A DNA stretch of 64,000 nt, taken from positions 1,054,001 to 1,118,000 of the forward strand of contig NZ_CP098732.1 of assembly GCF_023824315.1 (NCBI RefSeq), read 5' to 3'. How positions within the stretch are numbered: position 1 is the first letter of the stretch; each line of letters opens with the position of its first letter. Position numbers and translations under genes: made by a program. Under the pieces are notes generated by a model that ran no database searches, was not told where the DNA came from, and worked only from the letters and a program-made list of their open reading frames with translations. Origin of the DNA: Acinetobacter tibetensis. Its GTDB lineage: Bacteria; Pseudomonadota; Gammaproteobacteria; Pseudomonadales; Moraxellaceae. Positions 6,561-13,632 of this stretch are shown here, piece after piece.

Positions 6561-9431
6561 CTAAGAAGGGATAAGTTTATGTAATTGCAAGTATTCGGTG
6601 GCATTTTTTTCAGAGAGTGGTTTAGAAAAAAGATAACCTTGGGCAATGTCGCATTGTAGTTTTTCGAGATAGCAGAGCTGCTGTTCAGTTTCAATCCCTT
6701 CTGCGACGACAGTTAATCCCATTGCTTTACCCATGGCAACCATGGCACTAATAATGGCATCTTGTTTGCCATCTCCAATGTTGGCGATGAAGGCACGATC
6801 TATTTTTAGAATATCAATCGGGAAATCTGCGAGATAAGCAAGAGATGAATAGCCTGTACCAAAATCGTCTAGAGCAATATTAATATGACGTTGCTTAATT
6901 TGATCCAATAATATTTTGACCGTTTTTGAGTTTTCAATCAGGGAAGATTCAGTAATTTCAAGTTCTAAACTTTCACCAGAAATTTGATACGTTGCAATGG
7001 CTTCATCTAAATCGGAGAGAAGTTGTCCACGTTGTAATTGTTGAGCAACGACATTGACAGATACGCAAATATTTTTAAAACCAATCGAATTCCAATAGCT
7101 AATTTGCTTAGCTGTTTTTCGAATGACAATTCTTCCAATATCTGAAATTAAGCTGGTTTTTTCTGCCATTGGAATAAAGAGTGCAGGAGGAATAATGCCT
7201 TTAGTTGGATGATTCCAGCGAACCAAAGCTTCAAAACCGTAAACATGTTGATCTTTAAAGTCGATTTTAGGTTGGTAATAAACAACCAGCTCATCATTAC
7301 GAATAGCTTGGCGTAAGTCACGTTCTAAATAAATGCCTTGTTCAAGCAATGCTGTGTTATCACTCGAGTAATATTTCATGGTATGCCCCCCCAAACGCTT
7401 GGCTTCAGTTAAGGCTTGTTCGGCACAATTATTTAAATAATCGAGTTGTCGACCATGTTCAGGGTAGAAGGAGATCCCCATGGAAACCGTAATAATATGA
7501 TCCTGTCCAAAAATATCAAATGGTTCAGCAAAAGCATCTTGAATACGCTCACAATGCTGTTGAATGGATGGGCGGATATGAGAAATCTCATACACAATCG
7601 CAAAGTCATCGCCATTTAAATGTGCCAGGAACAACGCATCTGTGTTGGTTAAGCGTAAACGTTGAGCGACTTGTCTTAACAGTTCATCACCACCATTATT
7701 GCTTAAATATTCATTGAGTGGTCGGAATCGGTCAATATTGAGTCGAATCACAGCGAGTTGTTGAATGGAATCTTGATGCGATACTAAATATTGATGTAGT
7801 TGATAATTATAGTAAAAACGGTTTGGTAAGTCCGTTAACGTGTCATAATTTTCAAGATAAGATAAACGTTGTTCTTGAAGTTTACGTTCTGTCAGATCGG
7901 AAACAATCCCAATATAGTTGATGACACGATTATGTTCGTCGTGTATCGCATTAATATGTAGCCAAAACGTCAGCTCTTTGCCTGTACTGAATTTTTCAGT
8001 GAGTTCACCGTCATATTCACCTGTGCGTGCTAATTGTTCTAAAATAGCCTGATGGTTTTGTTGCTGTACGGATTTAAGGTTTGAGGTGATTGCGAAAAGA
8101 TGCTGTCCTAAGCAGAGGTCTTTATTAAAGCCTGTGATCTTTTCATAAAAAGGATTTACATTGACATAATGCAAATGTTTATCGAGGATAAAAATACCCT
8201 CAGCCGCTTGTTCTAAGACACTTGCAGCCAGTTTTAGACGTTCTTGATCGGTGCGTTCCTGATGAATGTCGCGTTGTATGCCAACCATGCGCAAAGGCTT
8301 TTTATTGGTTGGATCTCGTTCAATCACACGTCCAATATCGTGTACCCAACTCCACTCACCATTGGATTGCTGTACACGATAGGTGGCTTCATAGCGATCA
8401 GTCTCGGCACGAAGATGCTGTTTTAATGCTGCTTTGAAGCAGAATAAATCATCTGGATGAATGATGTTTTGTAGCTGAATACTGTGTTCTTTTGAATGTT
8501 TACGTTTTTTCTGTTGTTGGTAGTTACTGACAGATATATGACGTTCTTTAATATTCCAGTCCCAAGGTTTTAAACCTGCAATTTCATGTGCAAGATCCAA
8601 GTTTTGTTGCTGGTTTTCTAGATTACGATTCATTTGCTCAATATCAAAAGTACGTTCTTTAATTTTGTGCTCTAATTGCTGGTTATTTTGCTGTAGTTGT
8701 AATTCAATTTCTTTGGATTTGTTCATTTCATTTTGCAGTTGTTCACATAATTCTTCAGTCCGAGTCACTTGTTGCTCAGCATTTTTTATGAGTTGACCAT
8801 TACGTAAATATAAAGCAGATAAGCGTTTATGGATTCGTACAGTAGAATTGGCACACAATAAAATGACGATAAGAACAAAGTTCACGGTTAGATGAAATAA
8901 TTGGTTAATTTGGTCAGTAAGAATAAATTGAGATATAAAGTAAGGAATAATAGACGGAATGAAAATTAGACAAAAATAATCAAGGCGTTGGGTTAGGAAG
9001 GTAAGCGCTAATGTTTGAGTCACGATTAACAATAAGGCGGATAATGTTAAAGCATGAACAGGTTCAAAACTTGGATTGACCAGAGGTAAATAGTAATAAA
9101 TAAGACTAATTCCAGTTGCAATGAGTATGCCGATACCTATGCAGAGAAATTGCACCCAGTGATGCGCTTGGGAAATAGAATATTGTTCAAATTTAAATCG
9201 AGTTGCGGTCAGTAACCAAAAACTGCCGACAAGGAGCTCTGTGAGCAAGAACCAAACATTGAAATAGATGGAAAAGTGGGAAAAGTTAAACTGATAAACA
9301 CAATAAACATATAAAAAAATAATGAGAATACTGGCCAAAAATAATTGGATATGCCTTATGGAATTATGAATTTGCGCAGCACGTAACTGCGATCTAAGAT
9401 TCGCATCTAAAAAATCGGGCATAATATTCAT
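6561..9431 (-). CDS. Membrane PAS-GGDEF-EAL cyclic-di-GMP protein
   Basis: This 956-residue sensory protein has about six N-terminal membrane helices (residues 25-205). These are followed by a Gln/Glu-rich coiled coil (to about 275), PAS-type sensor modules (about 280-520), a GGDEF domain and an EAL domain. The GGDEF active site reads NGDDF (about residue 606) instead of GGDEF, so cyclase activity is doubtful. The EAL domain looks intact: FEALVRWNHP (about 731), LEITESSLI, DDFGTGYSSL (about 854), LKIDRAFI and VVAEGIET. I infer a c-di-GMP phosphodiesterase whose degenerate GGDEF domain may bind GTP as a regulator. The signal sensed is unknown. The gene is monocistronic, between maeB and rsmE on the same strand. 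Confidence 0.88.
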   Translation of the reverse strand: MNIMPDFLDANLRSQLRAAQIHNSIRHIQLFLASILIIFLYVYCVYQFNFSHFSIYFNVWFLLTELLVGSFWLLTATRFKFEQYSISQAHHWVQFLCIGIGILIATGISLIYYYLPLVNPSFEPVHALTLSALLLIVTQTLALTFLTQRLDYFCLIFIPSIIPYFISQFILTDQINQLFHLTVNFVLIVILLCANSTVRIHKRLSALYLRNGQLIKNAEQQVTRTEELCEQLQNEMNKSKEIELQLQQNNQQLEHKIKERTFDIEQMNRNLENQQQNLDLAHEIAGLKPWDWNIKERHISVSNYQQQKKRKHSKEHSIQLQNIIHPDDLFCFKAALKQHLRAETDRYEATYRVQQSNGEWSWVHDIGRVIERDPTNKKPLRMVGIQRDIHQERTDQERLKLAASVLEQAAEGIFILDKHLHYVNVNPFYEKITGFNKDLCLGQHLFAITSNLKSVQQQNHQAILEQLARTGEYDGELTEKFSTGKELTFWLHINAIHDEHNRVINYIGIVSDLTERKLQEQRLSYLENYDTLTDLPNRFYYNYQLHQYLVSHQDSIQQLAVIRLNIDRFRPLNEYLSNNGGDELLRQVAQRLRLTNTDALFLAHLNGDDFAIVYEISHIRPSIQQHCERIQDAFAEPFDIFGQDHIITVSMGISFYPEHGRQLDYLNNCAEQALTEAKRLGGHTMKYYSSDNTALLEQGIYLERDLRQAIRNDELVVYYQPKIDFKDQHVYGFEALVRWNHPTKGIIPPALFIPMAEKTSLISDIGRIVIRKTAKQISYWNSIGFKNICVSVNVVAQQLQRGQLLSDLDEAIATYQISGESLELEITESSLIENSKTVKILLDQIKQRHINIALDDFGTGYSSLAYLADFPIDILKIDRAFIANIGDGKQDAIISAMVAMGKAMGLTVVAEGIETEQQLCYLEKLQCDIAQGYLFSKPLSEKNATEYLQLHKLIPS

Positions 9432-9592
9432 AACCTTATTTTTGTTTTGTTCTAGATACTGTAGAGGTTATACGTTCCATTCATCTGCTTAGTCGTTTAA
9501 TAAAATCACAAAATATTGAATCAGTTTTAGATTAATCAGGTTATTCATAAATATCAATCTTATCCATCTGTATTTTCATCTTTTTAGAAAAA

Positions 9593-10309
9593 CTATGGTC
9601 TAACATTGTAATTTAAGATGGATAATGCAACCACAGGGGTCGTTTCGGTACGTAATACTCGTTCGCCGATACACCAGTTGACAAAACCTACATCATTTGC
9701 AGCTTGAATTTCTGCTTCACTCAAACCGCCTTCAGGCCCGATCAGCAGTGCGATATTTGGTTTGGCATTGTTCAAAGGATTTGTCTCATCCTTATTTGGT
9801 GCGAGCACAAGTTTCGTCTCTGGCAGTTCAGACACAAGCCATTTCTCTAAACTGAGTGGTGCAAGGATTTTTGGCACAAGGTTCATGCCACATTGTTCGC
9901 AAGCAGCAATCGCAATGCCTTGCCAATGATCTAACTTCTTTTGGTCGCGGTCATATTTTAAACGCATTTCACAACGTTCAGAGGTCAACAATTGAATTTC
10001 GGATACACCCAGTTCAACGGCTTTTTGAATCGCATAATCCATACGGTCACCTTTACTCATGACTTGACCAAGTAAAGTATGAATGGCTGGAGTACGATTG
10101 GTTGGGTTAAAAGCAGTGACCTGAACCGATGCTGACTTTTTGGCAACGTCACTTAAGGTCACTTCATATTCGCCGCCTTGTCCATTAAACAAAGTCGCTG
10201 TTTCACCGACTTGAGCGCGTAAAACTTTTACCCAGTGGTGAAACACTGTTTCAGTCAGTTCGACAGTGTGATCAACATTGAGTTCTGCTTCCATAAAAAA
10301 ACGAGGCAT
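9593..10309 (-). CDS. rsmE: 16S rRNA m3U1498 methyltransferase RsmE
   Basis: RsmE is a SPOUT-family enzyme that methylates N3 of U1498 in 16S rRNA within the 30S subunit. The protein has 238 residues. It starts with the typical PRFFMEAEL segment and an OB-like PUA region. The C-terminal trefoil-knot SAM site shows LLIGPEGGLSEAEI and LGERVLRTET-like GERVLRTETTPVVAL. Length and order match the family. It lies 41 bp downstream of metF, so the two may be co-transcribed. Confidence 0.95.
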   Translation of the reverse strand: MPRFFMEAELNVDHTVELTETVFHHWVKVLRAQVGETATLFNGQGGEYEVTLSDVAKKSASVQVTAFNPTNRTPAIHTLLGQVMSKGDRMDYAIQKAVELGVSEIQLLTSERCEMRLKYDRDQKKLDHWQGIAIAACEQCGMNLVPKILAPLSLEKWLVSELPETKLVLAPNKDETNPLNNAKPNIALLIGPEGGLSEAEIQAANDVGFVNWCIGERVLRTETTPVVALSILNYNVRP

Positions 10310-10349
10310 TCGGTTTTACTCTCAAATAAGGTGAGTCTAGTTTAAATAC

Positions 10350-11186
10350 TTATGCCAAACCTAGGTCTAGTACAAGCTGACGGGTAGGGTCAGTCGTGTT
10401 CATGGTGTAGAAGTGCAAACTTGGTGCACCACCAGCAATTAGGCGTTCGCAAAGTTTCACAATCACTTCATGACCAAATGCTTTAATGCTTGCCGTATCA
10501 TCACCATAGGTTGCCAATTGCTTGCGAATCCAACGTGGAATCTCAGCGCCTGTACCATCTGCAAAGCGAATTAAGTTGCTGGCATTGGTAATCGGCATAA
10601 TGCCCGGTGCAACTGGGATGTTCACACCTTCTTTTTGAATGCGATCGACAAAGTAGAAGTAGGCATCTGGATTAAAGAAGAACTGGGTTAAACCAGCGTT
10701 AGCACCTGCATTGGCTTTGTCGCAAAAACGTTGAATGTCTAAGTCAAAGCTTTCTGCTTGTGGATGCATTTCAGGATATGCAGCAACTTCAATGTGGAAA
10801 TGGTCACCAGAATGTTCACGAATAAAGCGGACCAAATCTGTTGCATAAGGTAATTCGCCTAGACCGACCTGACCTGAAGGTAGGTCACCACGTAGCGCCA
10901 CAATACGGTCAATGCCTTGTGCTTTATAAATGTCGAGTAATTCTGCAATACGAGCTTTGTCATCACCAATACAAGAGAGGTGAGGGGCAACAGGTGTACC
11001 TTTGCCATTAAATTCAGCAATGGCTGCTAAGGTACGTTCACGGGTTGAACCGCCAGCACCGTAAGTAATTGAAAAGAACTCTGGATTTAAGCGTTGTAGT
11101 TCTTGGTGTACGACTTTCAGTTTTTCTGCACCCGCATCCGTTTTGGTCGGGAAAAACTCAAAAGAAATAGGAATGTGTTTAGACAT
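10350..11186 (-). CDS. metF: 5,10-methylenetetrahydrofolate reductase MetF
   Basis: MetF is a FAD-containing TIM barrel. It reduces 5,10-methylene-THF to 5-methyl-THF, the methyl donor for methionine synthase. Family landmarks are the N-terminal ISFEFFPTKTD, the segment TYGAGGSTRERT, the repeat IVALRGD, and QFFFNPDAYF. The ATG at 11186 (MSKHIPIS) has AAGGA about 8 nt upstream. A TTG two codons earlier is less likely. It follows ahcY on the same strand, so it may share the SAH-riboswitch leader, subject to read-through of the repeat element between them. Confidence 0.95.
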   Translation of the reverse strand: MSKHIPISFEFFPTKTDAGAEKLKVVHQELQRLNPEFFSITYGAGGSTRERTLAAIAEFNGKGTPVAPHLSCIGDDKARIAELLDIYKAQGIDRIVALRGDLPSGQVGLGELPYATDLVRFIREHSGDHFHIEVAAYPEMHPQAESFDLDIQRFCDKANAGANAGLTQFFFNPDAYFYFVDRIQKEGVNIPVAPGIMPITNASNLIRFADGTGAEIPRWIRKQLATYGDDTASIKAFGHEVIVKLCERLIAGGAPSLHFYTMNTTDPTRQLVLDLGLA

Positions 11187-11221
11187 GTTCAAATCCTTTT
11201 TTATAAATGCTTGTATTCTTT

Positions 11222-11320
11222 TACCCTCGCCCTGACCCTCTCCCAGAGGGGGAGAGGAACCTCGCGGTATTTAATTCAGGGAAAAGTCCTCTCCTCTTAA
11301 GAGAGGATTTAGGAGAGGTG
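11222..11320. repeat. Intergenic CCTCTCC-type repeat with two hairpins
   Basis: The gap between ahcY and metF holds a block rich in CCTCTCC/GGAGAGG. One hairpin is CCCTCTCCC facing GGGGGAGAGG (around 11238-11257). A second is formed by CCTCTCCTCTT and AAGAGAGG with a further GGAGAGG (around 11291-11318). The base composition is unlike the surroundings. It resembles the REP/MITE-like intergenic repeats common in Acinetobacter and other proteobacteria. No second copy is visible in this window. It could end or stabilise the ahcY transcript. Confidence 0.6.
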
Positions 11321-11325
11321 AAAAA

Positions 11326-12708
11326 TTAGTATTTATAAGTATCCGATTTGAATGGGCCTTCAACTGCTACACCTAAGTAGTCTGCTTGTTCTTGAGTCAA
11401 TTGAGTCAGAACACCACCAAAACCAGCAACCATCGCAGCAGCAACTTCTTCGTCTAATTTCTTAGGAATAAGTTCTACACGGATTTTCGCAGCTTTTTCA
11501 GCTTCAGGAAGATCTGCAAATTTCTCAGCGAACAAATGCATTTGACCCAATACTTGGTTAGCAAAAGAACCATCCATAATGCGTGATGGGTGACCTGTTG
11601 CATTACCAAGGTTAACCAAACGACCTTCAGAAAGCAGGATTAGGTAGTTATTTTCATCTTCTGAACGGTAAACTTGGTGAACTTGTGGCTTAACTTCAAC
11701 CCACTTGTAACCACGTAAGTAGTTTGTGTCGATTTCAGTATCAAAGTGACCGATGTTACAAACAACAGCGCCTGCTTTTAATGAATCAAGCATTGCAGCG
11801 TCACATACGTGGTAGTTACCCGTTGTAGTTACGATTAGGTCAGTGTTTTGAAGAAGATCAGCATTTACGTCTTCTTTTTTACCTGTTTGTACGCCATTTT
11901 TGTATGGAGATACAACTTCGTAACCGTCCATGCATGCTTGCATAGCACAGATAGGATCAACTTCAGTTACACGTACAATCATACCTTCTTGGCGAAGAGA
12001 TTGAGCAGAACCTTTACCTACGTCACCGTAACCGATTACAAGTGCACGACGGCCAGATAAAAGCATATCTGTACCACGTTTGATTGCATCGTTAAGTGAG
12101 TGACGGCAACCGTATTTGTTGTCGTTTTTAGATTTAGTAACAGAATCGTTTACGTTGATTGCAGGAACTTTTAAAGTGCCATCACGAAGCATTTCGTACA
12201 GACGTTGAACACCTGTTGTTGTTTCTTCTGTTACACCGTGAATTTTAGCAATGACTTCTGGATATTTTTCATGAACAAGTAGTGTTAAGTCACCACCATC
12301 ATCCAAAATCATATTGGCATCCCAAGGTGTGCCATTGACATTGATTTGTTGTTCTAAACACCACATGTATTCTTCTTCTGTTTCGCCCTTCCAAGCAAAT
12401 ACAGGTACACCAGAAGCCGCAATTGCAGCAGCAGCGTGGTCTTGAGTAGAGAAGATGTTACAAGATGTCCAGCGAACTTCTGCGCCCAATTCAACCAATG
12501 TTTCAATGAGAACAGCAGTTTGAATGGTCATATGGATACAACCAAGGATTTTTGCGCCAGCAAGTGGTTTTGCAGCTGCATAACGCTTACGTAGACCCAT
12601 CAATGCTGGCATTTCTGCTTCAGCAAGTTTAATTTCTTTACGGCCGTAATCAGCAAGTGAAATATCAGCAACTTTGTAATCTGTAAATGAAGCAGTAACC
12701 GCGTTCAT
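11326..12708 (-). CDS. ahcY: S-adenosylhomocysteine hydrolase AhcY (SahH)
   Basis: AhcY reversibly hydrolyses S-adenosylhomocysteine to adenosine and homocysteine, removing the inhibitor left by methyl transfers. The 460-residue protein is cytoplasmic with tightly bound NAD. Visible landmarks are [16 protein letters not shown] near residue 56, [15 protein letters not shown], the NAD fold with [24 protein letters not shown] [13 protein letters not shown], and the C-terminal KSDTYKY that completes the neighbouring subunit's NAD site. It has a good Shine-Dalgarno (TAGGAGATCCAG before the ATG). It is preceded by an SAH riboswitch and its promoter and followed by metF. Confidence 0.98.
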
Positions 12709-12760
12709 CTGGATCTCCTAGTTATTAAATAACAATAAAAATAGATTGGATCGTTATGTT

Positions 12761-12887
12761 CGCGGATGCCGTTGTTAATCAAAACCAGTATTTCACAGAA
12801 GTTTTGACCGAATCGTCGAGCCTAGCGATTTCACATTACTGTTTTTGAAAATCAGCCTGTGAAAAAGTCGCAGCACCCCTCGACGAG
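12761..12887 (-). promoter_or_regulatory. S-adenosylhomocysteine (SAH) riboswitch
   Basis: The leader of ahcY folds as the SAH riboswitch class (Rfam RF01057). P1 pairs 12879-12886 with 12813-12820 over 8 perfect bp. P2 pairs 12868-12871 with 12825-12828 and 12858-12864 with 12829-12835 around a 3-nt bulge. The P4 pseudoknot pairs GGGTGC (12873-12878) with GCATCC (12764-12769), with one G-U wobble. The conserved core words GAGGGGTGCTGCGAC, AGGCTCGA and AACGGCATCCGC are all present in order. In this class SAH binding switches expression on. No terminator lies between the aptamer and the ATG 52 nt away, so control is probably translational. Confidence 0.93.
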
Positions 12888-12893
12888 TTGCAT

Positions 12894-12922
12894 ATTGTAC
12901 TTGGAAATTGTTTTAGTTCCAA
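12894..12922 (-). promoter_or_regulatory. Sigma-70 promoter for the riboswitch-ahcY transcript
   Basis: On the minus strand TTGGAA (complement of 12917-12922), a 17-nt spacer and TACAAT (complement of 12894-12899) form a good -35/-10 pair. The predicted start falls a few bases before P1 of the riboswitch, as expected for an aptamer at the 5' end of the RNA. Confidence 0.75.
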
Positions 12923-12974
12923 TCAGTAATTGGTTATTATTTGACTGATAAATGAGTACTTAGATAACTTAGTG

Positions 12975-13632
12975 ATGAATAAAGAAATAAATTATAAAAT
13001 AAAAAATTGGAGTGATATTTCGGCTGACTAGGTTAATGGCAGTGTAATCATTGGTAACGGTGCTGGTATGGCGCTTCATTCGAAATTTGTTTTAAATCTT
13101 TAAAAGAAAAAGCTGAAAAATTACAACTTTTCAATGAAGACATTTCAATGCTTTTTCAAGAATTTGATACCATCGACTTTGAGTTAATTCTTCGTTTAGT
13201 TTGGCATGCAAAATTGATTAATGAAAAATTGCGAATAGAAGAGAGTACGACCAATAAAGCCTATGAAAATATAAAAAATGCATTGATTCAAGTTGTGCGA
13301 GCAGTACATTGTTCTAGAGATCAGATTGCAGGTCAGTTCCCCCAACTTTATGAATTTACAAAATGCTTGAGCACCATTTTCTATGAAGTTTTGCCAGATT
13401 GAATAACGCAAAAACTAATTTGGTGATTTACGGTTGGGGTATAGGGAAACAAGAGTCTCACTTGGTTGATCAAATTTTTAAGCATAAATTAAGTGGCAAA
13501 ATTGCAATTTCTACTTACTCTAAAGATCAATCAGAGTGTCATCGTATTTATACTGAAATAAATAAGTTAGCTCCACAAGTTGAGGTGGAATTTTTTGATA
13601 GTCAAAGCTCAGGTTGTTGGAATAATCCTTGA
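12975..13632 (+). pseudogene. Decayed DUF4917 family gene
   Basis: Three consecutive pieces in three frames resemble one DUF4917-type protein. The first runs from the ATG at 12975 through an in-frame TAG (about 13029) to VIIGNGAGMALHSKF. A frameshift near 13090 leads into KSLKEKAEKL and the DFELILRLVWHAKLINEKL helical part, ending at 13402. The third piece (13399-13632) is the C-terminal LVIYGWGIGKQESH...KIAISTYS...EVEFFDSQSSGCW. The middle of the protein is missing at the 13400 junction. A premature stop, a frameshift and an internal deletion mean it is non-functional. Family function is unknown. Neighbours are unrelated. Confidence 0.75.

Follow-up and report, generated by a model that had tools for sequence, protein, structure and literature searches.

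The window analysed here, a 64,000-nt stretch of the Acinetobacter tibetensis genome (contig NZ_CP098732.1), carries on its minus strand an S-adenosylhomocysteine (SAH) riboswitch upstream of ahcY, the gene for SAH hydrolase. Our main reading, to which we give a probability of about 0.7, is that this element senses SAH and activates translation of ahcY, and that the P4 pseudoknot of the aptamer and a helix between the end of P4 and the first ahcY codons (CCGCG:CGCGG) exclude each other. Comparison among leaders establishes the aptamer fold with P4 as well as the P4–codon helix that shares two bases with it. In the proposed mechanism, P4 would be unstable without SAH, and the CCGCG:CGCGG helix would shut the Shine-Dalgarno sequence and the start codon into a closed fold; with SAH bound, P4 would be locked, the codon helix would lose its base, and ribosomes could start. 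The direction of the switch, with SAH as the on signal, is taken from the established behavior of the SAH class and the metabolic logic of the gene rather than from the folding results. SAH riboswitches are activators of expression; Wang et al. 2008 reportedly have the word "activate" in their title. Such a mechanism would give the SAH riboswitch a testable output with coding sequence as its switching strand. It would also caution against synonymous changes to ahcY and against reporter fusions that include nothing beyond the AUG.

Architecture of the ahcY leader

Sequence comparison confirms that the SAH riboswitch aptamer upstream of ahcY is real. Every word and helix named in the original prediction, including an 8-bp P1, a two-part P2 and P4, lies where that prediction had placed it on the minus strand; an inner stem-loop was missing from its list. 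The structural features of the RF01057 class (P1, P2, the P4 pseudoknot and the conserved words) are present in the window, and the gene context is the SAM-cycle context of SAH riboswitches: ahcY, followed on the same strand by metF and an rsmE-type gene. The features are as follows.

12922–12894, minus strand: sigma-70-like promoter, TTGGAA (12922–12917), 17 nt, TACAAT (12899–12894)
12887–12757, minus strand: SAH riboswitch aptamer (P1, P2, inner stem-loop, P4 pseudoknot), from RF01057 (29.3 bits), the genus model R1 (91.6 bits) and covariation
12886–12879 with 12820–12813, minus strand: P1, TCGTCGAG/CTCGACGA, 8 bp in the window
12878–12873 with 12769–12764, minus strand: P4 pseudoknot, GGGTGC/GCATCC, six pairs, one of them G-U
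12871–12868 with 12828–12825, minus strand: first part of P2, GCGA/TCGC, from window folds
12864–12858 with 12835–12829, minus strand: loop-side part of P2, TTTCACA/TGTGAAA, from window folds
12809–12800 with 12786–12777, minus strand: inner stem-loop, from window folds
12765–12761 with 12703–12699 (ahcY codons 2–4), minus strand: start-codon helix, CCGCG/CGCGG, with a counterpart in 146 of 146 parsed leaders
12752–12749 with 12715–12712, minus strand: hairpin over the ribosome-binding site, GATC/GATC, from window folds
12745–12742 with 12720–12717, minus strand: extra part of the same hairpin in the window, TCTA/TAGG, from window folds
12719–12715, minus strand: Shine-Dalgarno sequence, AGGAG
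12708–11326, minus strand: ahcY, S-adenosylhomocysteine hydrolase (PF05221, E = 2.9e-125; PF00670, E = 3.8e-58)
11192–10350, minus strand: metF, methylenetetrahydrofolate reductase (PF02219, E = 2.6e-79)
10309–9593, minus strand: rsmE-type rRNA methyltransferase (PF04452, E = 5.8e-49; PF20260)

When the aptamer is folded alone, 3 of 200 shuffled sequences fold equally well; with the spacer to the start codon included, the number is 25 of 200. The AhcY protein of the window is 100% identical over 460 residues to that of Acinetobacter sp. ANC 4910.

A helix between P4 and the first ahcY codons

The leader DNA has a match in 140 of 149 Acinetobacter genomes, our own included. Seven of the nine non-matching genomes also have no ahcY match, and the remaining two (G076 and G031) have ahcY and a diverged aptamer of the same plan. 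The genus-wide counts given here refer to 146 parsed leaders, which comprise 139 of the 140 matching genomes (G072 was omitted) and seven more.

The strand CCGCG, made up of the two terminal bases of the P4 3′ strand and three bases beyond it, is perfectly complementary to CGCGG in ahcY codons 2–4. The bases directly after P4 are unusually constant (GCATCC followed by GCG). Because the same two C residues are needed by both, P4 and the codon helix are mutually exclusive in their full form; as expected of a translational riboswitch, a helix covering the start region excludes part of the aptamer. At this register, all 146 leaders have a perfect 5-base complement lying no more than 12 nt from the start; at the other 49 leader positions, 0–12 of the 146 have one. 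The pairing is CCGCG/CGCGG in 144 leaders, CTGCG/CGCAG in L078, which agrees in sequence with L291 of A. qingfengensis, and CCACG/CGTGG in L086. The last two each carry a matching double change, at different positions of the helix, and in the codon one is synonymous (GCG to GCA) and one changes the amino acid (GCG to GTG). These are the only two double changes of the helix in the genus: a search of 175 Acinetobacter genomes with two variant-leader patterns gave 52 matches, of which only L078 and L086 lay in an aptamer. A third variant leader flagged by the script, L255, was judged by eye to be a chance match. Among 66 non-redundant leaders, all five helix pairs are kept in 100% of cases, and none of 500 shuffles yields the two double changes; counting further pair types is uninformative for this helix, with 500 of 500 shuffles as high.

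Codon 3 of ahcY is GCG in 144 of the 146 leaders. GCG makes up 18% of the alanine codons in 42 open reading frames of the window, and at alanine codons 14 and 19 of ahcY it is used in 0 of 90 and 2 of 90 cases, respectively. In a swap test, a leader's own partner was better in 596, tied in 105 and worse in 101 of 802 comparisons, a result that is positive without being clean. Shuffling of the window leader gave 37 of 500 sequences as good, and such single-leader shuffles are by themselves insufficient to decide the matter. Chance complementarity was considered and rejected.

The two genomes with a diverged aptamer, G076 and G031, have ahcY without a CCGCG:CGCGG helix. In their leaders (L120 and L261, both from small Acinetobacter genomes), another 10-bp helix (CTATATCATC paired with GATGATATAG) comes after the aptamer and also begins in the last two P4 bases; an overlapping ATCAAGA/TCTTGAT helix is present as well. 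These helices are possibly another output.

The output helix, in which the end of P4 would pair with the first ahcY codons, seems to be new. In the open literature we found no account of such a helix and no study of an Acinetobacter SAH riboswitch beyond Leyn et al. 2014; the original papers on the class might describe a Pseudomonas version.

The competing helix in other genera and families

In other Moraxellaceae, the complement is present at this register in 19 of 29 leaders and at the next, overlapping register in 14 of 29, and the remaining registers have it in 0–5 of 29. It is present at this register in 0 of 25 leaders from other families. The register test drew on 159 loci, of which 10 were not parsed automatically; two of these, L128 and L150, were added by hand, and L104, L115, L117, L120, L121, L123, L124 and L138 were left out. 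Among named records, 38 of the 39 leaders whose aptamer words are recognised by rule carry the complement downstream.

The letters and the position of the helix vary among genera. CTGCG/CGCAG lies at codons 2–4 in the leaders of genus g9, which is Psychrobacter according to its agreement with the named records L307–L309 and L311–L314, and in two of six leaders of genus g11; it extends into a start codon taken to be GTG in two of the four g7 leaders and in two of the six g11 leaders. In L126 and L133, a 12-bp helix takes in the AUG and the full length of the P4 3′ strand, and L148 has these letters too. The three g2 leaders have CGTTC/GAACG one base further on, an assignment made partly by eye. 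By rule, 5 of 31 representatives, all from outside Acinetobacter (L105, L109, L122, L137 and L143), show no convincing helix, and here 304–500 of 500 shuffles were as good. In family f21 (for instance L091–L098, L100, L102, L107 and L108), which is probably Pseudomonas and its kin, a CCATTCG/CGAATGG helix uses the last two P4 bases.

From these patterns we consider it slightly better than an even bet that ahcY codons 2–4 compete with the aptamer for the P4 3′ strand in much of Moraxellaceae, that the N-terminus of the protein (MNAV, MDAV) is in part dictated by the riboswitch, and that the competing strand has shifted in the course of evolution between coding positions, the AUG itself and the spacer upstream, with the same two P4 bases in use throughout.

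In L104, L124, L115, L117, L123 and L138, the P4 3′ strand is GCGCTC and is followed by a CTCGC/GCGAG hairpin well before the start codon. Judged from these leaders, the hairpin would be a third output layout, found in several genera.

Predicted folding of the start region

When the first codons are included, the predicted fold of the window contains CCGCG:CGCGG, CAU:AUG, GAUC:GAUC and UCUA:UAGG, and would cover both the start codon and the Shine-Dalgarno sequence. The predicted probability of CCGCG:CGCGG is 0.98 in the window and averages 0.73 over 131 distinct leaders, with values below 0.5 in 26 of them. The GATC/GATC pairs are formed in 98.5% of cells in the 66 leaders, without any double change.

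Blocking of the P4 strands in silico did not free the start codon: the mean unpaired probability of the AUG was 0.32 before and 0.16 after, and the AUG became freer in only 11 of 131 leaders. What keeps the start codon from becoming freer is that UUCAU of codons 6–8 offers AUGAA a pairing partner. The Shine-Dalgarno sequence became freer in 77 of 131 leaders; in the window its value went from 0.25 to 0.58, and a control block elsewhere gave 0.59. The cost of opening positions −18 to +15 fell by a mean of 1.8 kcal/mol (0.7 in the window), compared with a control mean of 0.6 for permuted hexamers; 396 of 2850 permutations reached the real value, and the real value exceeded the control mean in 79 of 95 cases. 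As proof of switching, these accessibility and opening-energy calculations fall short, since the opening of the start codon was not seen.

These results bear on two alternatives to the main reading. One, which we regard as unlikely, accepts the aptamer and takes CCGCG:CGCGG to be a constant structural element or a helix of the bound state, with switching achieved through, for example, the GATC:GATC hairpin, co-transcriptional folding or Rho. It would fit calculations that do not favor a simple switch model, a GATC:GATC hairpin over the Shine-Dalgarno sequence that is also conserved, and the different sequence 3′ of P4 in two genomes of the genus (G076 and G031). Against it stands the way in which the helix keeps to the pseudoknot: in most of the Moraxellaceae leaders examined (19 of 29) it starts in the last two P4 bases, including cases in which the letters or the distance to the start codon differ, and in L126, L133 and L148 it spans the whole P4 3′ strand together with the AUG.

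The other alternative, which appears distinctly improbable, reverses the sign of control, so that SAH binding would lower translation: once P4 has formed, a hairpin within codons 1–8 (AUGAA with UUCAU) would hide the start codon. The folding does predict a less accessible start codon when the P4 strand is engaged, and codon 7 is TCA in every one of the 83 leaders, out of 90, that have serine there. The UUCAU arm is nevertheless lost in the 7 of 90 leaders without TCA at codon 7 (L086 among them), in which the P4–codon helix is kept. Making more SAH hydrolase at low SAH would be metabolically senseless, and SAH riboswitches act as activators.

Finally, the conserved codons might reflect a constraint on the protein or on codon usage, with the complementarity being incidental. 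The N-terminal MNA does occur in AhcY proteins whose leader letters differ, and a 5-bp match is not rare for a single leader; set against the two leader-and-codon double changes (one synonymous, one changing the amino acid), the 18% share of GCG among alanine codons and the at most 12 of 146 leaders that match at any other register, this explanation is very improbable.

Conservation and class assignment of the aptamer

The core words of the aptamer are kept in 146 of 146 parsed Acinetobacter leaders. P4 is GGATGC/GCATCC in 130 of these and GGGTGC/GCATCC in 13, including the window, and three other forms occur once each, one of which is the double change GGATGT/ACATCC. Nineteen pairs in P1, P2 and P4 were counted over the 66 non-redundant leaders; 97.2% of cells are paired, and double changes are found in 8 of the 19. 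Pairing is 100% for the six pairs of P4 and for the inner five of P1, and each set includes one pair with a double change, which in P4 is GGATGT/ACATCC of L086. The genus-wide count of P1 stops at these five because in many leaders A faces G at the next position outward. In the loop-side part of P2, 91.7% of cells are paired and all five counted pairs show double changes. The inner stem-loop varies in length within the genus and was left out of the covariation count. Of five measures of aptamer covariation, four were equalled by 0 of 500 shuffles, and the remaining one, which counts further pair types, by 19 of 500. Sliding of the partner strands lowered aptamer pairing to 21–41%. The prediction of an SAH riboswitch before ahcY is backed by the conservation of the core and by covariation in P1, P2 and P4, and to our reading the comparison settles the identity of the element as an SAH riboswitch.

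The Rfam model gave a weaker signal. RF01057 scored 29.3 bits in the window (E = 9.3e-4 in 331 nt) with a full-length match (1–78 of 78), and its gathering score is 37. No match in the window reached the gathering score, and at E = 0.001 there was no match across the whole genome. The check proposed with the original prediction, a high-scoring RF01057 match, thus failed if taken literally. The same holds for the genus: we scored 29 Acinetobacter leaders (the window, L120, a set of seven and a set of twenty), and none reached the cut-off, the best having 36.5 bits. At E = 1, 18 of the 29 matched, with 25.2–36.5 bits, and 11 (L120 among them) did not; there was likewise no match at E = 1 in leaders from several related genera. 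Acinetobacter leaders have AT-rich stems and long loops. Since the RF01057 alignment runs over its full length, we read the sub-threshold score as a gap of the model rather than as exclusion from the class.

A genus model, R1, built from 36 other Acinetobacter aptamers with the window excluded, scored 91.6 bits on the window (E = 5.8e-19 genome-wide). R1 is largely a model of sequence, because its RNAalifold structure was poor (11 pairs). It found no second convincing copy of the aptamer in the genome, the next match having E = 0.2. We rejected the argument that the element is absent when Rfam finds nothing, the near-threshold alignment and R1 both indicating that the search is insensitive. 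In practice, annotation by the RF01057 cut-off omits the element, and it missed all 29 of the scored leaders. A degenerate motif, or one with a different ligand such as SAM, as 29.3 bits against 37 might suggest, is the least probable of the alternatives and barely credible in view of the core words in all 146 parsed leaders, the low scores common to all 29 scored leaders of the genus with their AT-rich stems and long loops, and the gene context of ahcY.

Distribution in Moraxellaceae and beyond

The aptamer was present in 34 of 34 sampled ahcY leaders from 13 Moraxellaceae genera other than Acinetobacter. The sample consisted of 32 leaders chosen among the best-scoring AhcY matches listed and two found through RF01057 (L103 and L104); genera g5 and g15 lie outside it. 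In 32 of the 34, the aptamer was detected by RF01057 (E up to 1) or by R1 (E below 0.01), and 13 of these 32 score above the Rfam threshold; L128 and L145, the remaining two, were recognised from the conserved words. Across the order, RF01057 with strict filters matched in 29 of 293 genomes. A rule based on the aptamer words returned none in 41 of 80 named records, and it misses some aptamers, because L299, L305, L310 and L320, which are from Moraxellaceae or similar, are negative by the rule and positive by Rfam or R1.

On this comparison, the SAH riboswitch is the normal state of Moraxellaceae. SAH riboswitches were reported in two of four Moraxellaceae genomes by Leyn et al. 2014 (PMC4239095), according to the accessible text of that report. 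The original prediction had spoken of a spread into this genus, a view that does not hold for an aptamer that is normal in the family and has been in print since 2014 (PMC4239095, accessible text); recent horizontal spread was rejected given the 34 of 34 leaders from 13 other genera. With the 2014 report and the presence across Moraxellaceae, the finding in that form was already known at the family level.

Some leaders and records in this survey have features of their own. In L150 (G226, about 160–385) and L299 (Moraxella caprae, about 230–460), the inner loop of the aptamer carries an insertion of about 200 nt with inverted repeats, located between the AGGCTTGG and AACGACATC words. The record BMPS01000002.1 (L303) is titled Streptomyces cinereus JCM 3040 and has an ahcY leader resembling that of Moraxellaceae genus g7; it looks mislabelled.

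Promoter and downstream genes

The predicted sigma-70-like promoter, TTGGAA-17-TACAAT, is present and is kept across the genus: of 143 leaders (the 146 minus three with too little upstream sequence), 136 have TTGG and 140 have a −10-like hexamer. It matches at 9 of 12 positions, and 1.7 such sites would be expected by chance in the region. An inverted repeat, TTGGA-N12-TCCAA (12922–12900, minus strand), spans the −35 box and the spacer. A TTGGA-N9..14-TCCAA repeat is kept in 97 of the 143 leaders, with N12 in 96, and the combination of this repeat with a −10 box occurs once in our own genome. The repeat may act as an operator in addition to the riboswitch.

A scan of positions 12400 to 13100, where 0.5 would be expected by chance, gave no terminator-like site, in agreement with the earlier statement that none is seen; the aptamer is not separated from its gene by an intrinsic terminator. 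This result and the predicted pairing with the start-codon region support a translational output.

Control of metF, which had been put forward as a further possibility, is plausible from the arrangement of the genes: metF lies on the same strand, and no promoter-like site was found in 9300–11420. It is no more than plausible because a terminator-like hairpin (TCCTCTCTTAAGAGGAGAGGA, 11307–11287, minus strand) stands between ahcY and metF; two terminator-like sites were found in the downstream scan, where 1.6 were expected by chance. The metF frame starts at TTG, and its first ATG is codon 3. Besides the hairpin, the ahcY–metF spacer (11307–11220, minus strand) contains repeats of the CCCTCT/AGAGGG type, and the spacer differs among the five loci read (L001, L004, L005, L007 and L019) of 30. 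The rsmE-type gene presumably corresponds to COG1385, a label that follows the 2014 regulon report. As far as the accessible text goes, metF and rsmE are placed in the ahcY operon by Leyn et al. 2014 (PMC4239095).

Comparison with known systems

Like members of the RF01057 class, the element in the window has P1, P2 and a P4 pseudoknot, with words around GCTGC, AGGCTCG and AACGGC, and lies before ahcY. It differs from the class in that P4 is GGRTGC/GCATCC in 143 of 146 Acinetobacter leaders, whereas the P4 strands of the class are richer in GC, and in that Acinetobacter aptamers have a longer P2 loop and a longer inner stem-loop.

In the accessible text of Leyn et al. 2014 (PMC4239095), the core of the Moraxellaceae SAH riboswitch regulon is ahcY and metF, with COG1385 as a member specific to Moraxellaceae, and these three genes are the gene set of the window. 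That text gives no Moraxellaceae sequence, structure or output mechanism.

The f21 leaders resemble those of Acinetobacter in that a hairpin directly 3′ of P4 competes with the pseudoknot for its last two bases; the partner strand lies at the Shine-Dalgarno region in f21 and in codons 2–4 in Acinetobacter. A similar principle is described, in the accessible text of PMC10907184, for the add riboswitch of V. vulnificus: its aptamer and ligand differ from those of the SAH riboswitch, and ligand binding likewise excludes a hairpin over the ribosome-binding site and the AUG.
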